Source: Desulfoferula mesophila (GTDB taxonomy: Bacteria > Desulfobacterota > Desulfarculia > Desulfarculales > Desulfarculaceae). From it: a stretch of 64,000 nucleotides of DNA. Shown one piece after another: positions 19,221 through 30,512 of the stretch; position 1 is the first letter of the stretch, and every line of letters begins with the position of its first letter. The notes beneath the pieces were generated by a model that saw only the letters and a program-made list of their open reading frames with translations, searched no databases and was not told where the DNA came from. The DNA is taken from positions 1,751,501 to 1,815,500 of the forward strand of contig NZ_AP028679.1 in NCBI RefSeq assembly GCF_037076455.1, written 5' to 3'. The translations under genes and the position numbers were made by a program.

Positions 19221-19280
19221 TCTTCACCTCCCTCGCCGTTTGGCGCCTCGGGCGCGGCGCCCCCCCGATGTAACCCAAAG

Positions 19281-19310
19281 TTAACAAATTACCGCCACGG
19301 CGGTTGTTAA
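19281..19310. promoter_or_regulatory. 30-bp dyad upstream of the GAK-type operon
   Basis: TTAACAA (19281-19287) and TTGTTAA (19304-19310) are perfect inverted arms, and inside them ACCGCC (91-96) and GGCGGT (99-104) form a second perfect pair around AC. The nested symmetry about 104 bases before the first GAK gene suggests an operator or a 5' leader hairpin. An AT-rich TAAGAT (about 19308-19313) could be a -10 element. No regulator gene is adjacent that would obviously own this site. Confidence 0.4.
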
Positions 19311-19413
19311 GATAAGAGGCCAAACTGCTGATGCGCGGGCCCGGCTCGGTCCGGGCCTAAACCGGCGGGCCGCGGGCCTAAGGGCCTGTTGCGCGCCAAC
19401 AGAAGAGAGTTTT

Positions 19414-20595
19414 ATGAGCAACAAAGGGCAGACCCAGGCAGCACCCTCCGGCGCCCCGCCTATTCCACCAGATTACGATCTGGAGCGGGCGGCGGGCGAT
19501 ATCGACTCCTGGGACCAGGCGCAGTACGAAGGCATCATTTCCACCGAGCTCACTTCCGACCAGCGCGTCCGGGTGGCCGAGCCCGATGGCGCCCATCCCC
19601 GGCAACGCGAGATTCTGGCCATCCACTGGCACCCGGAATGGGTTCCCATGGATTTGACCGCCCGGCGGGTGGATGCCCTTTATCCCAACGCGGACAAAAG
19701 CCTGATCATCCCCACCCAACACAACCAGATTCTCGACTGGAACGGCTACAGCGGGGTGGAGGTGGATTGTTATTCCTCCGGCTTCAACCGAAAGGTGCAG
19801 CTCTTGCTGCATTTCAAAACCGAGGCCCTGGGCGAGGCCCATATCCTGCGCTCCATGCTGGAGCACACCTTCAAATACCGTTCGGGACAGATGTTCGAGT
19901 TCATTGACACCATCATCAATCCCGCTCTGTCGGCGCGCCTGGAGCAGGCGGCCAACGACACCGGCTCCAGCGAAGAGGTGGTGGCCTTCACACGCTTTTA
20001 CACCGCCCGGCTGCGCCGTTTGGTGGAGATGAACCTGGCCGATACCCCCGCGTTCATGATCAAGAACAAGCTGTTGACCGAATACATCGACGCCCAGCGC
20101 GGGCGCCATACCGAGGTCATGGTCAACCGGGCCCAGCTCTTGCTCAAGGCGGTGAAGGCCATCGTCAAGGCGCATTTTTCCCTTAGCTATTTTTTCCGGG
20201 CCAGCGAGGTCATCGAAGAAGCCCGTTCCTTGGGCGGCGGGGTGGTGATTCCCCACCCCGAGCAGTTCTGGCCCATCCTGCTGGCCGAATATGACGTGGA
20301 CGGGGTGGAGGTCTGGAACCCCCAGTCGCGCGAGTACACCGAGTTTTTGATCCGGGCCCTGACCAACCAGAACAAGAGCCTGCCCTCCGGGCGTCGGCCC
20401 ATGCTGATCTTCATGGGAGACGACACTCACATGTCGGTCAAGCTCAAGGAGCCGGGCCGAGTGGAGCCTTCCAAGTACGAGCGGGAAGTGGGCTTGCAAC
20501 CCGCCTGGGACGACGTGGCGGTGCGCAAGAGCCTCAGTCTGGCCGGGGCCAGCCGCTCGCAGGTAATCGATGAATACCGGTCTCGCCTCAATTAA
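19414..20595 (+). CDS. PHP-type metal-dependent hydrolase, first gene of GAK cluster
   Basis: This 393-residue protein carries dispersed metal-ligand motifs like those of PHP phosphoesterases. H71-x-H73 is followed by P and E (HWHPEW), then H103, E116 and H133, VVIPHPEQFW with H281, DGVEVWN at 296-302, and a DDTH motif at 336-339 matching the final PHP DxH. The middle third (about 140-265) is helical and longer than in simple PHP proteins. It begins the seven-gene block and is 13 bases from the next gene. I infer a cytoplasmic phosphatase or hydrolase acting with the kinases downstream. The substrate is unknown; overall similarity to characterised PHP enzymes looks weak. Confidence 0.7.
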   Translation: MSNKGQTQAAPSGAPPIPPDYDLERAAGDIDSWDQAQYEGIISTELTSDQRVRVAEPDGAHPRQREILAIHWHPEWVPMDLTARRVDALYPNADKSLIIPTQHNQILDWNGYSGVEVDCYSSGFNRKVQLLLHFKTEALGEAHILRSMLEHTFKYRSGQMFEFIDTIINPALSARLEQAANDTGSSEEVVAFTRFYTARLRRLVEMNLADTPAFMIKNKLLTEYIDAQRGRHTEVMVNRAQLLLKAVKAIVKAHFSLSYFFRASEVIEEARSLGGGVVIPHPEQFWPILLAEYDVDGVEVWNPQSREYTEFLIRALTNQNKSLPSGRRPMLIFMGDDTHMSVKLKEPGRVEPSKYEREVGLQPAWDDVAVRKSLSLAGASRSQVIDEYRSRLN

Positions 20596-20608
20596 AGGAT
20601 AGGGAGCA

Positions 20609-20896
20609 ATGAGTTCCTCCGCCAACAGGTTCAGGCATGAGTCTCTCCAGGACTGCCAAAGCATCATCAATTATTTGATCGCCCTCAAGGACGGCTTCGA
20701 AAGCGGGGCCCTGCTGTTTTCCACCGACGGCCGCAACCTGGTGCTCAAGCCCGATGGCTTGATCAACCTGAACGTGGAAGCCAAGCGCAAGGGGGAGGAG
20801 ATCAAGCTTTCCCTGAAGATGCGCTGGAGCGAAAACGAGGGCGGCGGCAACCCCGAGGACCAGCCCCTTTTGATAGAGCCCATCAAGGCAAGTTAA
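20609..20896 (+). CDS. amphi-Trp domain protein
   Basis: A 95-residue protein matching the amphi-Trp pattern: LKDGFESGALLFS, then alternating strands LVLKPDGLINLNVEAKRKGE and IKLSLKMRWSENE ending in the conserved Trp. These small proteins recur in GAK gene clusters. The ribosome site AGGGAGCA precedes ATG 20609. The N-terminal part of the XXXCH protein at 25773 looks like a second, diverged copy, which suggests a shared binding role for the fold. The biochemical function is unknown. Confidence 0.85.
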   Translation: MSSSANRFRHESLQDCQSIINYLIALKDGFESGALLFSTDGRNLVLKPDGLINLNVEAKRKGEEIKLSLKMRWSENEGGGNPEDQPLLIEPIKAS

Positions 20897-20905
20897 GCGT
20901 CAGCC

Positions 20906-22558
20906 ATGCCAGCCACGCATCGCCTGGAAGAGGTGCGGGAGAATTTCCGCTTCATCGTCAGCGAAGTCACCGCCCAGGTAGAGCTCACCCGCCGCTTTTA
21001 CCAGCAGCCCCGCCGGGAGCTGATGGAGAAGATCAGCTCCCGCGACGACTACGTGGACAACCTCAAGAGCGTTATCCAGGAGCAGAGCTTCGACCGCCTC
21101 ATGGACCCCAGGGGCATCGAGCGGGCCAAGGTGGTGGAGCTAAGGGCGCTCAACACCATAACCGCCAACCTGGAGCGCATCGCCGATTTCGCGGTGAACC
21201 TGGTGGGCCAGATGGGCCATCTGGCGCAGTTGGAAAACCGGCGCCTGGTAGACTTTGCCCCCTTTTTCGACGAGGTGCTGGTGGGGCTGAACAACGTGGT
21301 GGACGCCCTGGATCGGCGCAACTCCAACAAGGCCTTTCGCATCTGCCAGTGCGAGTTCAACCTGGACGAGCTGCACCGCCACACCTTTGGCAAGGTGTTG
21401 GAGGAGCTGGAGGCCAGTTCCCATCGCGGCGACCTGGTGACCATCATTTTTTTCAGCCACTACCTGGAGCGCATGGGCGACTGCCTGCTCAACATCGGCG
21501 AGGCCCTTATCTTCGTCCTGGTGGGCGAGAAGATGAAGATCCGCCAGTACCAGGCCCTGAACGACACCCTGGCCGCCTCCGGCCTGTCGTCTTCGGTGGG
21601 GCAGGTGGAGTTCGAATCCATCTGGGGCACCAGGGGCGGCTGCCGCATCGCGGCGGTGCAGGATCCGCGGCCCGAGTCCACCAGCCCGGTGCTGTTCAAG
21701 CAGGGCCTGGCCAAGAAGCTGGGCAAGGAAAAAGAAAACCTGGAGCTGTGGGAAAAGCTGGCCCCCGGCCTACCCCCCAAGGTGTGGGCCTTCCAGGAGG
21801 ACGAGGACGGCGAAGGCTCCATTCTCCTGGAATACCTGCCCGGCTGCACCATGCAGGACTTGCTTGTCAACGGCGACGAGACAAACCTGGCCCGGTCCGA
21901 GAACCTGCTGGAAGAGACCCTGGGCAAGGTGTGGTGGAGAACCAAGCAGGCTAGAGAGCTGCGTTCCGATTTCGTGGGCCAGATTCGCGCCCGTCAGGAG
22001 GCGGTGTACCGCATCCATCCCGAGCTTGAGAGCAAACCCGTGGTCATCGGCAACCTGCGGCTGCCTTCCTTCGAGGGCCTGCTGGATACCTTGGAGGAAC
22101 TGGAGCCCGAGCTGGCCGCCCCCTACGCGGTGCGCACCCACGGAGACCTCAACCTGAACAACGTGATTTACGACCCCCTCGGCCAGCGCCTGCATTTCAT
22201 CGATCTGCACCGCTCGGCCATGGCCGACTGCGCCCAGGACATCTCGGTGTTTTTGGTCTCCAACTTCCGCTTGCCGGTTTTCGAACCCGAGGTGCGCCGG
22301 CGCATCAACACGGTCATCGCGCGCTTTCTGAACTTCGCCCTGGATTTCGCCCGCAACCTGGGCGACGAGGCCTTTCAGGCCCGTCTGGCCCTGGGGTTGG
22401 GGCGCTCCATGTTTTCCTCCACCCGCTTTGAAATGAACGGCCACTTCGCCCGGGAGATGCATCTCAGGGCCGTGTACTTGTTGGAGCGGGTGGTGGCCCA
22501 CCGGGGCCGGGATTGGTCACGCTTCAAGCTGCCCCGGCAACCCCTCATCTTTCCCTGA
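20906..22558 (+). CDS. PhoU-like domain fused to APH-type kinase domain
   Basis: A 550-residue two-part protein. Residues about 1-205 are helical and PhoU-like, with NTITANLERIADFAVNLVGQ and SHYLERMGDCLLNIGEALIF, matching the E-R-i-x-D repeats of PhoU. Residues about 230-550 are an aminoglycoside-phosphotransferase-type kinase fold: the catalytic loop HGDLNLNN has H412 and D414, and a metal-binding D433 sits in HFIDLHRSAMAD. The intact catalytic residues suggest a real small-molecule or protein kinase, here wired to a phosphate-signalling type domain. The fusion belongs to the GAK cluster. It is unlikely to be an antibiotic-resistance enzyme. The substrate is unknown. Confidence 0.82.
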   Translation: MPATHRLEEVRENFRFIVSEVTAQVELTRRFYQQPRRELMEKISSRDDYVDNLKSVIQEQSFDRLMDPRGIERAKVVELRALNTITANLERIADFAVNLVGQMGHLAQLENRRLVDFAPFFDEVLVGLNNVVDALDRRNSNKAFRICQCEFNLDELHRHTFGKVLEELEASSHRGDLVTIIFFSHYLERMGDCLLNIGEALIFVLVGEKMKIRQYQALNDTLAASGLSSSVGQVEFESIWGTRGGCRIAAVQDPRPESTSPVLFKQGLAKKLGKEKENLELWEKLAPGLPPKVWAFQEDEDGEGSILLEYLPGCTMQDLLVNGDETNLARSENLLEETLGKVWWRTKQARELRSDFVGQIRARQEAVYRIHPELESKPVVIGNLRLPSFEGLLDTLEELEPELAAPYAVRTHGDLNLNNVIYDPLGQRLHFIDLHRSAMADCAQDISVFLVSNFRLPVFEPEVRRRINTVIARFLNFALDFARNLGDEAFQARLALGLGRSMFSSTRFEMNGHFAREMHLRAVYLLERVVAHRGRDWSRFKLPRQPLIFP

Positions 22559-22569
22559 GCCGGTATGAA

Positions 22570-23463
22570 ATGACGACAAAGAGTAAACTCAAAGTAGCCG
22601 TGGTCGGCATCGCGGGCGGTTGGTCCAGCCAACGCCTGCTGGATGCCCTGGAACAACGCACCGGATTCCGTTGCTTGGTGGACATGTCCCAGGTGCGCTC
22701 GGACCTGCACACCGGCCGGGCCTATTATGACGACGTGGACCTGACCGCCCTGGACGGCTTGGTAATCAAAAAGGTGGGGGCCGAGTATTCCCCGGATCTG
22801 TTGGACCGCCTGGAGCTGCTGCGCTTCATCGCCTCCCGGGGGCCGCGCGTCTTTTCGCCGCCCGCCTCCATCATCGCCATGCTGGACCGCCTGAGCTGCA
22901 CCACCACCCTGGTGGCCGGGGGCATCCCCATGCCGCCCACCGTGGTCACCGAAAGCGTGGACCAGGCGGCCCGGGCGGTTGAGCGCATGGGCCGCTCGGT
23001 GCTCAAGCCCCTGTACTCCACCAAGGCCCGGGGCATGCTGGTGGTGGAGCCCGGACCCGGCCTGCGCGAGAAAATCGCCGCATACCGCGACGCGGGTCAC
23101 CCCATGATCTACTTGCAGCAAATGCTGGCCTTGCCCGGCCAGGACCTGGGCGTGGTGTTCTTGGGTGGTGAGTATCTGGCCACCTACGCCCGCGTGGCCA
23201 ACGGCGACTCCTGGAACACCACCCGCCGGGCGGGGGGCCGCTACCAGGAGTACGAGCCCAGCCGGGAGATCAAGGAGCTGGCCCAGCGGGCCCAGGCCTT
23301 GTTCAATCTGGATTTCACCTGCGTGGGCGTGGCCGAGACCGAACAAGGTCCGGTGGTGTTCGAGGTGAGCGCCTTTGGCGGCTTCCGGGGGCTGCAGGAA
23401 GGATGCGCCATGGACGCGGCCAGCTATTACGCCGAATACGTTTGCCGGGAGTTGGCCTCATGA
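22570..23463 (+). CDS. ATP-grasp enzyme, GAK system type
   Basis: This 297-residue protein has the ATP-grasp fold of the RimK group: an N-terminal alpha/beta part (VAVVGIAGGWSSQRLL), then SVLKPLYSTKARGM as the ATP-binding lysine and loop, LQQMLALPGQDLGVVFLGGE, and the metal-binding VVFEVSAFGGFRGLQEG near the C terminus. RimK relatives join an amino acid, often glutamate, to a carboxylate. True RimK ends its metal site with E-x-N; here the segment is EVSAFGG, so the asparagine is not in the usual place. ATG 22570 is chosen because the stop of the previous gene lies 11 bases before it. Its TGA overlaps the next start. Confidence 0.88.
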   Translation: MTTKSKLKVAVVGIAGGWSSQRLLDALEQRTGFRCLVDMSQVRSDLHTGRAYYDDVDLTALDGLVIKKVGAEYSPDLLDRLELLRFIASRGPRVFSPPASIIAMLDRLSCTTTLVAGGIPMPPTVVTESVDQAARAVERMGRSVLKPLYSTKARGMLVVEPGPGLREKIAAYRDAGHPMIYLQQMLALPGQDLGVVFLGGEYLATYARVANGDSWNTTRRAGGRYQEYEPSREIKELAQRAQALFNLDFTCVGVAETEQGPVVFEVSAFGGFRGLQEGCAMDAASYYAEYVCRELAS

Positions 23464-24527
23464 ACCTGCCTCGCGTAAGCGAGTTGGCCGAAGAGCTGCT
23501 GGGGCGCCAGACGGCCGATATCCGCCTGAACCTTGGGCTCAACGAACTGAACTTCGAGATCCGCACCAACCGCCCCGAGCTGGCCGAGGAACTGGAGCGC
23601 TATTACCGGCCTTTCCAGCAGGCCGGCGGCGACGGGCCCCTGATCACGGTGTACGCCCTGGAGACCCCGGCCTGGGATTGCGCTCTGCCGCTCAGGCTCA
23701 AGGACCCGGAGCCGGGCAAGAGCAAAATCAAGGAAGAGTACGTGGACCTTGCGGACGGGCGCCTGGTGCGCAAGCGCCTCACGGGCATGGTCTTCGTCTT
23801 CGGCGGCGATACCAACCTGGCCCTGGGGCCCTGCCTGGCCAATCCCAACCAAGTGGTCAACTTCATCAACAACCGTCAGATACAATGGGAATTGGAGCGG
23901 GGAGCCTTGCTGGCCCACGCCGCCGGGGTATGCGGCCCGCGCCTGGGCCTGGCCATGGCCGGGCGGGCGGGGCAGGGCAAGTCCACCCTGGCCCTGCACC
24001 TGATGAGCCGGGGAGTTACCTTCGTCTCCAATGACCGCCTCATGGTGACCCAAGGCGAACAGGGCCCCTTGATGAGCGGGCTGGCCAAGCTGCCGCGCAT
24101 CAACCCCGGCACGGCGCTTAACAACCCGGACCTGAGCAAGGTGATGAGCCCGACCGATCAAAAGCGTTTCGCCGCCCTGCCGCCGGCGCAGCTGTGGTCC
24201 CTGGAGCACAAGTACGACGTGGACATCGACGCCTGCTTCGGACCGGGGCGTATCAAGATGGGCGGGAGCCTCGACCTGCTGGCCCTGCTGGATTGGGAGC
24301 GCGACGCCGGGGAATGCCGCCTGCGGCAAGTGGATTTGGCCGAGCACCCGGACCTGTTGGCCGCCTTTATGAAGGAGCCGGGCCTGTTCTATCTGCCGCC
24401 CGTGGGCCAGGCCGCGCCCGGCCAAGCGGACTATCTCCGGGTGCTGGCCGGGGCCAAGGTCTTGGTCCTGGAGGGTGGGGTTGATTTCGAAAGGGCCGCG
24501 GATTTGCTGGCCCAGGAGCTGCGCTAG
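23460..24527 (+). CDS. HprK-related kinase B
   Basis: The 355-residue protein resembles the kinase domain of HPr(Ser) kinase. The P-loop reads AGRAGQGKSTLALHLMSRG at about residue 165, and the downstream VTFVSNDRLMV corresponds to the HprK segment with an Asp next to the active site. The N-terminal 150 residues are unlike HprK of Firmicutes. A PTS-type HPr gene is not present here. The start ATG overlaps the ATP-grasp stop (ATGA), so the two enzymes are translationally coupled, the pairing behind the name grasp-and-kinase. The target of phosphorylation is unknown; proteins of the same cluster are candidates. Confidence 0.88.
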   Translation: MNLPRVSELAEELLGRQTADIRLNLGLNELNFEIRTNRPELAEELERYYRPFQQAGGDGPLITVYALETPAWDCALPLRLKDPEPGKSKIKEEYVDLADGRLVRKRLTGMVFVFGGDTNLALGPCLANPNQVVNFINNRQIQWELERGALLAHAAGVCGPRLGLAMAGRAGQGKSTLALHLMSRGVTFVSNDRLMVTQGEQGPLMSGLAKLPRINPGTALNNPDLSKVMSPTDQKRFAALPPAQLWSLEHKYDVDIDACFGPGRIKMGGSLDLLALLDWERDAGECRLRQVDLAEHPDLLAAFMKEPGLFYLPPVGQAAPGQADYLRVLAGAKVLVLEGGVDFERAADLLAQELR

Positions 24528-24529
24528 AC

Positions 24530-25732
24530 TTGAGCGACCAAGGTGGCCTGACCATAAGCCGACCCCTGCGCGTGCCCGATCCGGTGCGACTGGCCCGCTA
24601 CGGCCGAGCGCCGGAGCTGGGGCCAACCATCCTGTTTTTCAGTGGCGGCACCGGACCCGGCCCCCTGTGCCGGGAGCTGATCCAATACACCCACAACTCC
24701 ATCCACCTCATCACCCCCTTTGACTCCGGCGGCTCGTCGGCGGTTTTGCGCCGGGCCTTTGCCATGCCCGCGGTGGGCGACCTGCGCAACCGCATGATGG
24801 CCCTGGCCGACATGAGCGTGCGGGGCAACGCCGAGGTGCGCCGCCTTTTCTCCTATCGCCTGCCCCCGGAGGCCGACGCCCGGGAGCTGCGGCAGCGCCT
24901 GGAGGACATGGTGGAGGGCGACGACCCCTTGGTGGCCGCGGTTCCCGACCCCCTGCGCAAGATCATCCGCAACCACCTGGGCTATTTCCTGGCCGAGATG
25001 CCGGATCACTTCGACCTGGCCGGGGCCAGCATCGGCAACCTGGTCTTGGTGGGGGGCTATCTCAACAACGGCCGCCATCTGGACCCGGTGGTTTTTCTGT
25101 TCACCAAGCTGGCCGAGGTGCGCGGGGTGGTGCGCCCGGTGGTCAACCAGGATCTGCACCTGTCCGCCCGCCTGGCCGACGGCCGCCTGATCCTGGGGCA
25201 GCACCGCCTGACCGGCAAGAACGAGCCGCCCTTGTCCTCGCCCATCGTAAAGCTGGGCCTGAATCAGGGCCTGGACCAGGAGCGCCCGGCATCGGCGGCG
25301 ATCAGGCCCAAGGTGGCCCGCCTCGTCGCCACGGCGGAGCTGATCTGCTATCCGGTGGGCAGCTTTTACAGCAGCCTGTTGGCCAGCCTGTTGCCCTCGG
25401 GAATAGGGGAGGCGGTGGCCGCCAATCCCTGTCCCAAGGTGTTCGTGCCCAATACCGCGCCGGATAGCGAGGCGCTCACGGGGGGGGTGGCCCAGCGCGT
25501 GGCCGAGCTGCTTGGCGCTCTGGGCGCCCAGGAGGGGGCCCGGCGCGACGGGGGACGAGTCTTGGATTACGTGCTTTTGGACCGGCAGTGGCAAGGCTAT
25601 CCCGGAGGATGGGATCGCCGGTCCCTGGAAGATATGGGCCTGGGGGTCATCGAGACCGAACTAGTCACGCCAGACAGCGCCCCCCTGACCGATGGGCGCC
25701 TTTTGGCCGAAGCCCTGCTCTCTTTGGTTTGA
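24530..25732 (+). CDS. CofD-like protein, GAK system type
   Basis: A 400-residue protein of the CofD/YvcK superfamily. The N-terminal nucleotide or phosphate site FFSGGTGPGPLCREL and the following PFDSGGSSAVLRRAF and VGDLRNRMMALAD are close to the family's GGGTG, DDGGSSG and GDLRN motifs; GNLVLVGGYLNNG is also typical. CofD is a 2-phospho-lactate transferase of coenzyme F420 synthesis, while YvcK binds UDP-GlcNAc. Neither role is supported here, since no F420 genes are present. Translation probably starts at TTG 24530, two bases after the previous stop, with CAGGAG as ribosome site; no ATG fits the conserved N terminus. Confidence 0.85.
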   Translation: MSDQGGLTISRPLRVPDPVRLARYGRAPELGPTILFFSGGTGPGPLCRELIQYTHNSIHLITPFDSGGSSAVLRRAFAMPAVGDLRNRMMALADMSVRGNAEVRRLFSYRLPPEADARELRQRLEDMVEGDDPLVAAVPDPLRKIIRNHLGYFLAEMPDHFDLAGASIGNLVLVGGYLNNGRHLDPVVFLFTKLAEVRGVVRPVVNQDLHLSARLADGRLILGQHRLTGKNEPPLSSPIVKLGLNQGLDQERPASAAIRPKVARLVATAELICYPVGSFYSSLLASLLPSGIGEAVAANPCPKVFVPNTAPDSEALTGGVAQRVAELLGALGAQEGARRDGGRVLDYVLLDRQWQGYPGGWDRRSLEDMGLGVIETELVTPDSAPLTDGRLLAEALLSLV

Positions 25733-25772
25733 GGCCAGGGAGGCGACGGTAGTCTATTACCTGGAGAAACGT

Positions 25773-26393
25773 ATGAACACTCCCAAGAAGGATAAAGTGA
25801 AGCACCGCTTTTCGCCCGCCGAGGCGGCGGACTATCTGCGCCAACTGGCCGACGCCTTGGAGCAGGGGCACATCGCCCTGCGCTCCGACGAGCTGGACCT
25901 GGAGGGCGAGGTAAAGGTCAAAGAGGAGCTCAAGACCAAGTCCGACAAGACCACCTTGAAGATAAACCTCAAGCTGGTTTCTCCCATACCCATTCCCTCG
26001 CCGGAAGAGGCCGCGGCCGGGGAGGCCGGCGAGCCGGAGCAGGACGGGGGGTTCGTGGAGATAACTGCCGGTGAGGAGGAGCCCGCCGAGAGCGAGGGCA
26101 AGGCTTCCTACAAAAAGGTGAAAAAGGCCCTGGGCAAAAGCTTCAGCGCGGTGCGGGAGGCCCGCAAGCAGGGGGGCATGCCCGAGGCTGAGCAAGTCGC
26201 GGCCTTTCTGGCCGATGCCCGGGCCCTGTGCACCTTTGACAAGGCCAAGTACGGCAGCGAGAACTACCCCCGCTTTTTGGCCGCCCTGGAGCGCCTGGAA
26301 GCGGCCATGGCCGCCGGCGAGGCCCAGGCCCTGGACGAGGCTCTGGCCGAAGTGGCTCAGTGCAAAAGCGACTGTCACGGCAAGTTCAAATAG
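25773..26393 (+). CDS. XXXCH domain protein, last gene of GAK cluster
   Basis: This 206-residue protein ends in CKSDCHGKFK, the short C-terminal CH motif that names the XXXCH family. Residues about 12-65 resemble an amphi-Trp domain (YLRQLADALEQGHIALRS, then strands ending in KINLKLV). A Glu/Gly/Pro-rich linker separates this from the helical C-terminal part. A small protein with a conserved C-terminal Cys-His next to a ligase and two kinases looks more like a substrate or carrier than an enzyme; that is inference. ATG 25773 follows the ribosome site CTGGAGAAAC. A strong terminator 26 bases after the stop ends the operon. Confidence 0.82.
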   Translation: MNTPKKDKVKHRFSPAEAADYLRQLADALEQGHIALRSDELDLEGEVKVKEELKTKSDKTTLKINLKLVSPIPIPSPEEAAAGEAGEPEQDGGFVEITAGEEEPAESEGKASYKKVKKALGKSFSAVREARKQGGMPEAEQVAAFLADARALCTFDKAKYGSENYPRFLAALERLEAAMAAGEAQALDEALAEVAQCKSDCHGKFK

Positions 26394-26418: not shown

Positions 26419-26445
26419 GGCCGCCCTCTGGGGCGGCCTTTTTTT
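26419..26445 (+). terminator. rho-independent terminator of the GAK operon
   Basis: GGCCGCCC at 26419-26426 pairs perfectly with GGGCGGCC at 26431-26438, loop TCTG, followed by seven T. It separates the GAK genes from the GntR regulator gene. Confidence 0.93.
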
Positions 26446-26576: not shown

Positions 26577-27296
26577 ATGGAAAGCATGTTGTCAGACAAA
26601 TATGAGTTGAAGCAGCCTTTGCGTCTTCCCGACCAGGTGGCCGCCATACTCGTGGGGGAGTTGGAAAACGGCACGCTCAAGCCGGGCGAGATGCTGCCTC
26701 CCGAGATGGAACTGGCCGCCCGCTTCGGCGTGAGCCGGGCGGTGATCCGCGAGGCGCTTTCCCAGCTCAAGGCCGAAGGGCTTTTGGAATCTCAACAGGG
26801 GCGCGGGGTCATGGTGGTGGGACGCGCCGGACGCCGTTACTTCCGCCTGGAGGATCCCGAGAAATCCAACGCTGAATCCCTGACCCACCTGTATGAGCTT
26901 CGGGCCATCCTGGAAGCCGAGGCCGCGGCCTTGGCCGCCGCTCGGGCCCATACGCGCGATATCGCCCGCTTGGGTGAGTGCGTGGTGGCCATGGCCCACG
27001 CGGTGGAAGGCGACGCCATAGGGGCCGTGCCCGACCTGGACTTTCATCGCGGCATCGCCGAGGCCAGCGGCAATCAGCACCTGTGCGAACTGATGCAGTT
27101 CTTGAACGACAAGCTGCTGGTGCTCATCCAAGGGGCCAGGGAGCATTCGCGGCAAAACCCCGGCCTGCCCCGGCAGGTGCAAAAGGAACACGAGAGCATC
27201 TACCGGGCCATAGAGGCGCGCGACCCCCAGAAGGCCAGGGAAGAGACCCTGGCCCATCTGCGGATGGCGGCCAAACGCTTGGGGCTGGATATCTAG
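26577..27296 (+). CDS. GntR-family (FadR-type) transcriptional regulator
   Basis: The 239-residue protein has the GntR winged helix (MLPPEMELAARFGVSRAVIR) and a FadR/FCD-type helical effector domain with the metal-binding pattern DLDFHRGIAEASGN, H in KEHESIYRAIEARD and a final AHLRMAAKRLG. FCD proteins respond to small organic acids and usually repress neighbouring genes. It lies 186 bases upstream of the 2-oxoacid oxidoreductase operon and is the likely regulator. Start ATG 26577 or ATG 26586 are both possible. CATGC and GCATG form an inverted repeat (26569-26588) around the start codon. Confidence 0.9.
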   Translation: MESMLSDKYELKQPLRLPDQVAAILVGELENGTLKPGEMLPPEMELAARFGVSRAVIREALSQLKAEGLLESQQGRGVMVVGRAGRRYFRLEDPEKSNAESLTHLYELRAILEAEAAALAAARAHTRDIARLGECVVAMAHAVEGDAIGAVPDLDFHRGIAEASGNQHLCELMQFLNDKLLVLIQGAREHSRQNPGLPRQVQKEHESIYRAIEARDPQKAREETLAHLRMAAKRLGLDI

Positions 27297-27482
27297 GGTG
27301 GACGAGGTCTTCGCCGGCCGCGCGGCCGCCAAGCGGGCTTTAGTCGGGCAGGGGAGCTTTGAGGTTTTTTTGGTCAAGGGGCGCCGGCTGCCCGTCAAGA
27401 CGGTCTAAAATGTTGAGTGGCCGAGGAAAGGCGCGGAGGGCGCCTTTTGATACTTAATCGGATCAAGCACTGGAGTAGTGAC

Positions 27483-27848
27483 ATGATCGCCAACCAGGCG
27501 ACCACGAAACGGGACAAGCCGAAAGGTAAACACAGCTTTTATCCTGCCTGGTGTAAGCGTTGCGGCAATTGCGTGTCCTTTTGTCCCCTGGGCATCCTGG
27601 TCGCGGATGAATGGGGCTATCCCCGTCTGGTGGACCAGGATCGCTGCACGGGATGCGGGCTATGCGAAATGCTTTGCCCCGACTTCGCCATAACCGTGGG
27701 CTATGAAAAACCCGGGGCAATGGACTTGGCCCATCCGGTCGGCGCGGTAAGGCCGCGTGAGGTGAAAAAGGAACAATCCGAGTCCGCCAAGAACACCGGC
27801 ACGATCAGCCCGGAACGTTTGGCCCCGGTGCCGCGGGAGGAAAAATAG
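27483..27848 (+). CDS. korD: 4Fe-4S ferredoxin subunit of 2-oxoacid:ferredoxin oxidoreductase (delta)
   Basis: A 121-residue protein with two classic [4Fe-4S] motifs, CKRCGNCVSFCP and CTGCGLCEMLCP. It passes electrons from the TPP-containing catalytic subunit to soluble ferredoxin. ATG 27483 is preferred because GGAG precedes it and because the alternative upstream frame adds only unconserved residues. The stop lies 2 bases before the alpha subunit gene. The 40-residue tail after the second cluster is charged and poorly conserved. Confidence 0.9.
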   Translation: MIANQATTKRDKPKGKHSFYPAWCKRCGNCVSFCPLGILVADEWGYPRLVDQDRCTGCGLCEMLCPDFAITVGYEKPGAMDLAHPVGAVRPREVKKEQSESAKNTGTISPERLAPVPREEK

Positions 27849-27850
27849 TC

Positions 27851-29032
27851 ATGGCCGCAGAAACCACCAAGCCGTCGCGCAGGCCGGCCAAGTCGGCGCG
27901 CAAGGGTCAATCCCGGCTGCTGCAGGGCAACGAGGCCGCTTCCTTGGGCGCCTTGGCCGCCGGCTGCAACTTTTTCGCGGGCTATCCCATCACCCCGGCC
28001 AGCGAGATCACCGAGTACATGAGCCGGGAGATGCCGGTACGGGGAAATCCCTTCATCCAGATGGAGGACGAGATCGCCTCCATAGGGGCCTGCGTGGGCG
28101 CCTCTCTGGCCGGCCGCAAGGCCATGACCGCCACCAGCGGGCCGGGCTTCTCCCTGATGCAGGAGAACCTGGGCTACGCCATGATCGCCGAAATCCCCTT
28201 GGTGGTGGTCAACGTGATGCGCGGCGGGCCCAGCACCGGCCTGCCCACCAACGTGGCCCAGGGCGACGTGCAGCAGGCCCGCTGGGGCACCCACGGCGAC
28301 CACCCGGCCGTCGTGTTCTGCCCCAGTTCGGTTAGCGAGTGCTTCGAGCTGATGGTAATGGCCTTTAACACGGCCGAGCGCTTCCGCACCCCGGTCATTT
28401 TCCTGGCCGACGAGACGGTGGCCCACTTGCGCGAGAAGGTGGTGCTGCCGGCCGAGGGCGATCTGGAGGTCATCGACCGCCGCCGCCCGGCCGTGCCTCC
28501 GGACTGGTACGTGCCTTATAAAACCGACGGCAGCCTGATTCCGCGCCTGGCCGATCTGGGCGAGGGCTACCGCTACCACGTGACCGGCCTGGTGCATGAC
28601 GAGCGGGGCTTCCCCACCCGCCGGGCCGACGAGGTGGAGCCTTTCTACGCCCGACTCTTCGGCAAGATCAGCCGCCACTTCGACGACCTGATGCTCACCA
28701 AGCAGTATTCCCTGGACGACGCCGAGATCGTGCTGATCTCCTATGGCTGCACGGCCCGCTCCTGCCGGGCGGCGGTGCGCCTGGGCCGGGAACGGGGCAT
28801 CAAGCTGGGCCTGCTGCAGCTGTTGACCCTGTGGCCGTTCCCCCGCCAGGCGGTGGAGGCGGCGCTCACCGGGCGCAAGGCGGCCCTGGTGCCCGAACTC
28901 AACATGGGCCAGATCAGCCGCGAGGTAAAAAGGGTCAACGACGGACGAACCCAGGTGATTCGTCACAGCAAAATGGACGGCACCATGATCACCCCCGAGG
29001 AGATCCTGGGCCGCATGCGGGAGGTGGCCTGA
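27851..29032 (+). CDS. korA: 2-oxoacid:ferredoxin oxidoreductase, alpha subunit
   Basis: This 393-residue protein is the alpha chain of a four-subunit 2-oxoacid:ferredoxin oxidoreductase: LQGNEAASLGALAAGCNFFA, YPITPASEITEYMSRE, MEDEIASIGACVGASLAG and ATSGPGFSLMQENLGYA. The enzyme oxidatively decarboxylates a 2-oxoacid with CoA to acyl-CoA, CO2 and reduced ferredoxin in anaerobes. The gene order D-A-B-C and absence of a fused gamma domain fit the 2-oxoglutarate (Kor) type, but the substrate cannot be fixed from sequence. Its stop overlaps the beta start by one base. Confidence 0.92.
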   Translation: MAAETTKPSRRPAKSARKGQSRLLQGNEAASLGALAAGCNFFAGYPITPASEITEYMSREMPVRGNPFIQMEDEIASIGACVGASLAGRKAMTATSGPGFSLMQENLGYAMIAEIPLVVVNVMRGGPSTGLPTNVAQGDVQQARWGTHGDHPAVVFCPSSVSECFELMVMAFNTAERFRTPVIFLADETVAHLREKVVLPAEGDLEVIDRRRPAVPPDWYVPYKTDGSLIPRLADLGEGYRYHVTGLVHDERGFPTRRADEVEPFYARLFGKISRHFDDLMLTKQYSLDDAEIVLISYGCTARSCRAAVRLGRERGIKLGLLQLLTLWPFPRQAVEAALTGRKAALVPELNMGQISREVKRVNDGRTQVIRHSKMDGTMITPEEILGRMREVA

Positions 29033-29874
29033 TGACGGCGGTGCATCGAAGCGTGGTCTACGATTGGCTGCGTCACGATAAGAAGTTCCCCCACGTATGG
29101 TGCCCCGGCTGCGGGCTGGGCATCCTGTTGGGATCGCTGGTGCGCTCCCTGGCCCAGGGCGGCTACGACAAGAACCAGGTGGTGCTGGTAAGCGGCATCG
29201 GCTGTTCCGGCCGCCTGCCGGTGTACGTGGACGTGGGCAGCGTGCACACCACCCACGGCCGGGCCCTTACCTTTGCCACGGGCATCAAGCTGGCCAAGCC
29301 GGAGCTCAAGGTCATCGTGGTAATGGGCGACGGCGATGCCACGGCCATCGGCGGCAACCATCTTATACACGCGGCGCGGCGCAACCTGGACCTCACGGCC
29401 ATTATCGTCAACAACCTGAACTACGGCATGACCGGCGGCCAATACAGCCCCACCACCCCCCTGGGCGCCAAGGCCACCACCGCCCCTTACGGGCATTCCG
29501 AGCCCAGCTTTGACATCAGCGCCCTCACGGTGACCGCGGGGGCCTCCTTCGTGGCCCGCTCCACGGTGTACCACGTGACCCAGCTGGACCAGATGCTGGG
29601 CCAGGCCATAGCCAAGAAGGGCTTCGGCGTGGTGGAGGTGCTCAGCCCCTGCCACACCAACTACGGGCGGCAAAACCGGCTGGGCAGCCAGGTGGAGATG
29701 ATGAAGGGCTTCAAGAAACAGGCGGTGCGCGCGGACCGCTGGGACAAGGTGAGCCCGGCCGAGCGCGAGGGCCGTTTCCCCATCGGCGTCTTGGCCGACC
29801 ACGGGCGCCCCACTTTCTGGGAGACTTACGAGGGCGCCATCGAACGGGCCCAGGCCATCCGGAAGGAGGGCTAG
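29032..29874 (+). CDS. korB: 2-oxoacid:ferredoxin oxidoreductase, beta subunit (TPP-binding)
   Basis: The 280-residue beta chain holds the thiamine diphosphate site: VMGDGDATAIGGNHLIH with the NN partner in IIVNNLNYGMTGGQ. A CPGCG pair near the N terminus (VWCPGCGLGI) and a later Cys (SPCHTNYG) are the usual cysteine ligands of the single cluster in this subunit. ATG 29032 shares a base with the alpha stop (TGATG), giving tight coupling. Confidence 0.92.
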   Translation: MTAVHRSVVYDWLRHDKKFPHVWCPGCGLGILLGSLVRSLAQGGYDKNQVVLVSGIGCSGRLPVYVDVGSVHTTHGRALTFATGIKLAKPELKVIVVMGDGDATAIGGNHLIHAARRNLDLTAIIVNNLNYGMTGGQYSPTTPLGAKATTAPYGHSEPSFDISALTVTAGASFVARSTVYHVTQLDQMLGQAIAKKGFGVVEVLSPCHTNYGRQNRLGSQVEMMKGFKKQAVRADRWDKVSPAEREGRFPIGVLADHGRPTFWETYEGAIERAQAIRKEG

Positions 29875-29876
29875 CC

Positions 29877-30512
29877 ATGGCGGTAAGCAAGAAGAAAGAC
29901 ACCGGCAAGACCAAGACTCCAGCCCCGGCCATGGAGCGCATGGAGGTGCGTCTGGCGGGCAGCGGCGGGCAGGGGCTCATCCTGGCCGGACTGGTTTTGG
30001 CCGAGGCGGCCGGGCTGCACGATGGCCGTTCCGTGGCCATGGGCCAGAGCTATGGACCGGAGGCCCGGGGAGGAGCGTCCAAGGCCGAGGTCATCGTGGC
30101 CGACCAGGATATCGACTATCCCCTGGCCACCAGGGTGGACATCTTCCTGGCCCTGACCCAGGAAGCGGCGGACACCTACTCTTGGGATCTGGAGCCCGGC
30201 GGCTGGATCGTGGTGGACAGCGATCTGGTGAGCCATCCGCCCTCCAGCCGGGCGGTGGCCCTGCCTTTCACGGCCACGGCCCGCGACAAGCTGGGCAAGC
30301 CCATGGTGGCCAACGTGGTGGCTCTGGGCGCCCTTACCGAGCTCACCGGGGTGGTCAGCCGCAAGGCCCTGGAAAAGGCCCTCTTGGCTAGGGTGCCCAA
30401 GGGCACCGAGGCCCTGAATAAAAAGGCCCTGGCCGCCGGGACCAAAATGGCCAAGGATTGGCAGGCCAAAACCCAGGAGGTTAGCCAGGAGCCCACTTCC
30501 GAGGACGTTTAG
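29877..30512 (+). CDS. korC: 2-oxoacid:ferredoxin oxidoreductase, gamma subunit
   Basis: A 211-residue gamma chain with LAGSGGQGLILAGLVLAEAA at residues about 25-45, then SYGPEARGGASKAEVIV, both typical of the family. It completes the alpha-beta-gamma-delta complex. The first 20 residues (SKKKDTGKTKTPAPA) are a lysine-rich extension not needed for the fold; a later internal ATG would remove it. It is the last gene of the operon. Confidence 0.92.
   Translation: MAVSKKKDTGKTKTPAPAMERMEVRLAGSGGQGLILAGLVLAEAAGLHDGRSVAMGQSYGPEARGGASKAEVIVADQDIDYPLATRVDIFLALTQEAADTYSWDLEPGGWIVVDSDLVSHPPSSRAVALPFTATARDKLGKPMVANVVALGALTELTGVVSRKALEKALLARVPKGTEALNKKALAAGTKMAKDWQAKTQEVSQEPTSEDV

Follow-up and report, generated by a model that had tools for sequence, protein, structure and literature searches.

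The window, a stretch of 64,000 nt from Desulfoferula mesophila (contig NZ_AP028679.1, positions 1,751,501 to 1,815,500), carries a GAK (grasp-and-kinase) operon that is a complete copy of the catalogued gene set, and its first gene, which encodes a predicted phosphoesterase of the PHP fold, is a regular GAK component. The reading favored here, tentatively, is that GAK is a cytosolic phosphoryl-transfer module working with the Pho regulon and the Mg2+ supply. What was a list of unexplained families gains a core enzyme that had been missing, an exchange of phosphatases between lineages and a phosphate and Mg2+ context, and becomes a concrete, testable hypothesis.

Composition of the GAK Operon

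Seven open reading frames, all on the + strand, were found within positions 19414-26393, with spacings of 13, 9, 11, -4, 2 and 40 bases and a terminator behind the last gene (Table 1). The arrangement described by an earlier, sequence-only reading of the window (seven co-directional genes with short gaps or overlaps and a strong terminator) was thus confirmed. Its identification of the GAK system was borne out as well, as five of the seven proteins (amphi-Trp, grasp_GAK, HprK_rel_B, CofD_rel_GAK and XXXCH) passed the cut-offs of the NCBIfam models TIGR04354 to TIGR04358, which are 31 bits for TIGR04354, 200 for TIGR04355, 300 for TIGR04356, 340 for TIGR04357 and 40 for TIGR04358. In the PhoU-APH protein, the PhoU and APH domains were found by Pfam, and no NCBIfam model reached its cut-off. 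The CofD-like protein also matched TIGR01826 (YvcK) with 98 bits, and the second-best family of the ATP-grasp enzyme was MptN (7e-36). When compared with the two sister genomes (L052 and L053), all seven genes showed purifying selection (dN/dS 0.07-0.26), and therefore the cluster is not a product of chance. None of the seven proteins matched the PADLOC models of anti-phage defence, no relatives were found on viral contigs, and the literature searched on GAK, XXXCH and amphi-Trp yielded nothing relevant and no published function for GAK.

Table 1. Positions of the GAK operon genes and of the flanking signals in the window.
Feature	Position	Strand	Details
Pho-box-like element TGTAAC-N5-GTTAAC (11-bp direct repeat)	19269..19285	+	kept in sisters L052 and L053
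Candidate -10 TAAGAT	19308-19313	+	downstream of the Pho-box-like element
PHP-fold phosphoesterase (predicted)	19414..20595	+	393 aa; AlphaFold model; long helical insertion at about 143-254
Amphi-Trp protein	20609..20896	+	95 aa; TIGR04354, 69.8 bits
PhoU-APH fusion kinase	20906..22558	+	550 aa; PF01895 and PF01636
GAK ATP-grasp enzyme	22570..23463	+	297 aa; TIGR04356, 436 bits; D253G
HprK-related kinase B	23460..24527	+	355 aa; TIGR04355, 459 bits
GAK CofD-like (GlmR/YvcK-related) protein	24530..25732	+	TTG start; TIGR04357, 509 bits
Two-domain protein, amphi-Trp (N-terminal) and XXXCH (C-terminal)	25773..26393	+	TIGR04354, 40 bits; TIGR04358, 72 bits
Strong intrinsic terminator	26419..26445	+	stem of 8 G-C pairs, 4-nt loop, T7

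The PHP Gene is a Regular Component and has a Counterpart in One Clade

At least 500 stretches of the genome collection contain relatives of the GAK ATP-grasp gene, and several phyla have GAK clusters; about 100 related copies were compared, and the mapped set consisted of 80 named loci together with the loci of a phylum sample. This sample comprised 297 genomes of Desulfobacterota, which were searched for grasp_GAK and PHP. The former exceeded its cut-off in 19 genomes and the latter was present in 21, with both in 16, grasp_GAK only in 3 and PHP only in 5 (Fisher p 1.6e-19 for co-occurrence). In the three grasp-only genomes, the cluster lies at contig ends (L013, L034 and L037). Co-conservation in other Desulfobacterota, on which the earlier reading depended, was seen, although it is patchy (19/297 genomes). 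PHP recurs in the GAK clusters of Desulfobacterota, Zixibacteria, Nitrospinota, Nitrospirota, Atribacterota and Planctomycetota. The gene had been taken for an addition at the front of the set; instead, it accompanies the ATP-grasp gene in 16 of the 19 genomes and in most clusters, and is a regular GAK component. In two genomes (G213 and G277) the cluster is split over two places, and the half with XXXCH, PHP, amphi-Trp and PhoU-APH is kept. The sister family f2 has retained PHP where the ATP-grasp gene is missing, adjoined by PhoU-APH in L132 and by amphi-Trp and PhoU-APH in L135, which suggests that PHP, amphi-Trp and PhoU-APH form a sub-module.

Components were counted in the 51 loci with enough flanking sequence, all of which contain the ATP-grasp gene by construction. 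PhoU-APH was present in 48, amphi-Trp in 47, HprK_B in 45, PHP in 34 by gene calling (35 when L067 is included, where the gene was missed at gene calling and found in the other mapping), CofD in 33 and XXXCH in 19. Eleven of the loci without PHP carry a calcineurin-type metallophosphatase and a histidine phosphatase, often with a SixA-NUDIX protein. This metallophosphatase is unrelated to PHP and was found in Proteobacteria and in two myxococcal metagenome-assembled genomes. PHP alone, metallophosphatase alone and both together were counted at 34, 11 and 0 loci, respectively, and on the ATP-grasp tree the metallophosphatase loci form a single group (support 90/95), so that a single exchange of one phosphoesterase for the other seems to have taken place. 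Given that the two were never found together in the 51 loci and that one seems to stand in for the other, a phosphoesterase is probably a functional requirement of GAK; three loci (L073, L075 and L088), with neither enzyme, are exceptions to this rule.

Several other forms of the cluster were observed. In the proteobacterial form (L126:12021-15098 and similar loci), a SixA-NUDIX fusion, a histidine phosphatase and a metallophosphatase replace PHP, CofD and XXXCH. In one genus (f41/g71), seven genomes have CofD_GAK alone, with the rest of the GAK set missing from its vicinity (L143-L149), and CofD is also found alone in G076. The copy in L038 (G046) has in-frame stops in PHP, PhoU-APH and CofD and is a decaying copy or reflects sequence errors or recoded stops. 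Acetate kinase adjoins CofD_GAK in L044 (L044:13840-16858) and L045, and lies near PHP and PhoU-APH in L132 (L132:5789-6988).

Fold of the PHP Protein and Active Sites of the Other Enzymes

The PHP assignment of the sequence-only reading could not be reproduced from the sequence, which had no match in Pfam, NCBIfam or the PDB sequences, and it was upheld by the fold. The AlphaFold model (pLDDT 91) matched 3e0f with a Z of 16.1 (240 residues aligned), RNase AM 9etk with 15.6 and the AMP-bound structure 2yb1 with 14.8, while unrelated folds gave a Z at or below about 6. In 51 homologues, H71, H73, H103, E116, D118, H133, H281, D337 and H339 are invariant, and in the alignment eight of the nine expected PHP metal ligands (His/Asp/Glu) are invariant and in the correct order. 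The first gene therefore encodes a predicted phosphoesterase whose PHP fold was confirmed by the model. Its likeness to those PHP phosphoesterases that contain an insertion domain (3e0f/3o0f, 2yb1 and RNase AM 9etk) lies in the fold (Z 15-16) and in the order of the invariant ligands; unlike these, the window protein has a long helical insertion and no detectable sequence similarity to them. Of the "possible phosphatase" proposed previously, the PHP protein is the candidate, whereas the PhoU part has a known regulatory fold and is no phosphatase.

In PhoU-APH, conservation across 94 homologues extends to both metal motifs of the PhoU part (E90xxxD94 and E188xxxD192) and, in the kinase part, to K265, E275, HGDxNxxN (412-419) and D433. 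In HprK_B, the P-loop (G171-T176) and D192 are conserved, with the P-loop glycines, Lys, Ser and Thr invariant. The GAK ATP-grasp family carries E-V-S at a position where RimK enzymes have E-V-N. Residue 253 of the ATP-grasp enzyme is G in the window and D in all 98 others, both sisters included; by motif, D253 aligns with a Mg2+ ligand of RimK. The substitution could mean that activity or Mg2+ binding has been lost, or it could be a sequence error.

Amphi-Trp and XXXCH Proteins

The aligned Trp (W73) is retained in 96% of 144 amphi-Trp domains, and no conserved Ser or His acceptor was identified in this domain. The genome encodes just two such domains, both inside the operon. The product of the last gene, called XXXCH in the earlier reading, is a two-domain protein whose N-terminus also exceeds the amphi-Trp cut-off. 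The start of this gene at 25773 is backed by the sister genes. Among 30 homologues, only M1, K117, F145, C201 and H202 are invariant. Of the heme motif, the C-H pair alone is conserved (CKSDCH in the window), and the standard CXXCH was not found. The 30 sequences, when inspected, showed no signal at the N-terminus.

According to Foldseek, ranks 1-33 for the C-terminal domain are all heme bundle proteins, nearly all of them cytochromes c', and most top VIA matches of the model are cytochromes c' as well. The Z of the four-helix bundle, about 11, is below the level that is safe for bundles on its own. The last aligned residue of the model, 206, corresponds to residue 124 of Alcaligenes cytochrome c', and by the numbering of that protein H202 would lie at its heme-ligating His. 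Since the fold, the motif and a weak Pfam b562 match agree, the C-terminal domain is likely related to cytochrome c'. Its likeness to cytochrome c' and b562 consists of the four-helix bundle and a C-terminal CH(xx)[YF][KR]; in contrast to them, the XXXCH protein lacks the standard CXXCH and a signal peptide and is fused to an amphi-Trp domain. Nothing was found that points to a ligated or phosphorylated form of XXXCH. With XXXCH present in just 19 of the 51 loci, it cannot be the universal GAK substrate; amphi-Trp (47/51) could be.

Phosphate and Mg2+ Genes Adjoining GAK Clusters

The pstCAB-phoU genes, or parts of them, adjoin the GAK cluster at five loci (L049, L056, L064, L081 and L087; PstB identity checked) versus 0.23 expected by chance in 842 kb of flanks (Poisson about 3e-6, with a background of 26 true PstB in 96 Mb that was drawn from related genomes only). 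Mg2+ transporters of three families are also found next to the cluster, namely MgtA (L073, L088 and L113), CorA (L048) and MgtE (L087). The GAK flanks are enriched for Mg2+ transporters and for phosphoglucomutase/phosphomannomutase, while among 103 control genes at least 3.5 kb from the same clusters neither family had two or more members. L087 has the continuous run phoU-XXXCH-PHP-amphi-Trp-PhoU-APH-ATP-grasp-HprK-CofD-mgtE, and L150:3524-9877 (G161) has pstCAB-phoU-CofD_GAK-mgtE, with no ATP-grasp_GAK match listed in the phylum search. In L063, a gene for a PhoB-like regulator precedes PHP. This phosphate and Mg2+ context had not been foreseen in the sequence-only reading. Genes for phosphoglucomutase/phosphomannomutase flank four loci, mainly Nitrospina and planctomycete clusters, and glycogen phosphorylase lies near one further locus. 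The divergent partner in L109, considered as a polyphosphate kinase, was rejected because it is RecQ.

A Pho-box-like element with a candidate -10 region lies upstream of the window operon (Table 1) and belongs to the type of motif that the family's pst promoters carry (TGTMAC-N5-TGTMAC). When scored with a matrix built from ten pst-promoter sites, the upstream regions of 13 GAK operons exceeded 91 other upstream regions (p 1.6e-5, optimistic in view of the relatedness of the 13 operons). The sites are strong in L054 (24.2 bits), L036 (19.7 bits) and L060/L061 (16.7 bits), and those of the window and its sisters scored 10.6-10.7 bits. With the E. coli consensus, some good sites were found across all loci and the group test did not reach significance. 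An operator pattern of 31 nt that had been proposed by eye had no match. These predicted sites support a possible control of GAK by a PhoB-type activator; some relatives have strong ones, and that of the window is weak and suggestive only. The GAK set may share a switch with the phosphate- and magnesium-uptake genes.

The genomic evidence supports the link of GAK to phosphate and Mg2+, and from it we infer a sensor, a substrate and an output. The PhoU domain of PhoU-APH would sense phosphate or Mg2+ status through its metal-binding motifs and gate the fused APH-type kinase. The target of this kinase and of the HprK-like kinase would be either the amphi-Trp protein or some small molecule, from which the phosphate would be taken off again by PHP or, in its place, by the metallophosphatase and the histidine phosphatases. 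The ATP-grasp and GlmR/CofD-like proteins may make or sense a ligand, the amphi-Trp proteins could be the carrier or read-out, and the net effect would be a tuning of phosphate and Mg2+ assimilation. A more specific and rather doubtful proposal is that amphi-Trp proteins hold a new phosphorylated compound, a signal or a store, which the PhoU-gated kinase would form and the interchangeable phosphoesterase, either PHP or the metallophosphatase, would break down in response to phosphate and Mg2+. In Salmonella, the response to phosphate starvation is reported to be set by a phosphorus signal in the cytoplasm whose identity is unknown (PMC11389368), a kind of signaling in which GAK might act.

Several observations weigh against this role with the Pho regulon and the Mg2+ supply. 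Most clusters (about 70 of 75 loci) have no pst genes as neighbors, and the cluster of the window itself lacks adjoining genes for phosphate or Mg2+. The associations with Mg2+ transporters and phosphoglucomutase came to light post hoc. The window site is weak, with 11% of background regions scoring as high as its 10.6 bits, and in the metallophosphatase clade the E. coli consensus gave some good sites but no significant group result (p 0.23). Moreover, D253G may disable the ATP-grasp enzyme in the window genome. Beyond the terminator, window positions 26577-30512 encode a GntR/FCD regulator, then a ferredoxin-like protein and subunits resembling those of 2-oxoacid:ferredoxin oxidoreductase; these genes are probably unrelated to the operon.

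Alternative Explanations

It is unlikely, in our view, that GAK is a protein modification or phosphorelay system, in which the kinases and the ATP-grasp enzyme would phosphorylate or ligate amphi-Trp or XXXCH and PHP or phosphohistidine-type phosphatases would reverse this. In its favor, proteins are known to be modified by enzymes of the RimK and HprK folds, almost all clusters have amphi-Trp, which in its own genome is confined to the operon, and a SixA-like phosphohistidine phosphatase joins GAK in the metallophosphatase clade; however, small molecules are what APH, MptN and CofD act on, most of the 51 loci lack XXXCH, and no conserved Ser/His acceptor was identified in amphi-Trp.

The GlmR/YvcK-like CofD protein and the HprK-like kinase might instead steer the flow of sugar phosphates or nucleotide sugars, as in the Bacillus HprK-Crh-GlmR set, a role that we consider quite unlikely. 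CofD_GAK is nearest to YvcK/GlmR, GlmR is reported to be an accessory uridyltransferase (PMC10128056), which counts for this role, and the phosphoglucomutase/phosphomannomutase and glycogen phosphorylase genes would fit it. On the other hand, CofD is missing in 18 of the 51 loci, the mutase loci belong mainly to two groups of clusters, and the PhoU and pst links are left unexplained.

It is improbable that CofD, a glutamate ligase and kinases build a small cofactor or a secondary metabolite by a logic like that of F420 or tetrahydromethanopterin. The MptN match and the membership of CofD in the phospholactate transferase family agree with such a pathway, but the clusters share no enzyme dedicated to forming a scaffold, GlmR/YvcK is the closer relative of the CofD-like protein, and the independent loss of parts (L135; CofD alone in G076 and other genomes) better suits a regulatory module. 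That heme or redox sensing is central, with the cytochrome c'-like XXXCH protein as the sensor, is highly improbable: in the model its C-H pair appears to superpose on the heme-binding pair, yet the protein is dispensable, the first Cys of CXXCH is absent and the signal peptide that c-type maturation requires is missing.

Comparison with Known Systems

The window operon resembles the catalogued GAK set (TIGR04354-TIGR04358) in its five models over cut-off and in a gene order common to its relatives, and it differs in the PHP gene, matched by no NCBIfam model, and in PhoU-APH, matched by none at cut-off. With the Bacillus HprK-Crh/HPr-GlmR(YvcK) set it shares an HprK-like kinase, a GlmR-like protein and, in the metallophosphatase clade, NUDIX; the sequences are distant, however, and HPr is encoded elsewhere, not in the GAK operon. 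As no protein passed the HPr kinase cut-off, HprK_B might in principle serve as the HPr kinase, but nothing was found that links it to this HPr. As for the phosphoryl-transfer module favored here, its likeness to the Pho regulon (PhoB/PhoR, PstSCAB and PhoU) lies in the PhoU domain and, in relatives, in the neighboring pst-phoU genes and Pho-box-like promoters. In contrast to that regulon, the PhoU of GAK is fused to an APH kinase, and GAK has its own kinases, ligase and phosphoesterase; PhoU-APH would join the small set of known PhoU partners as a PhoU-fused kinase.

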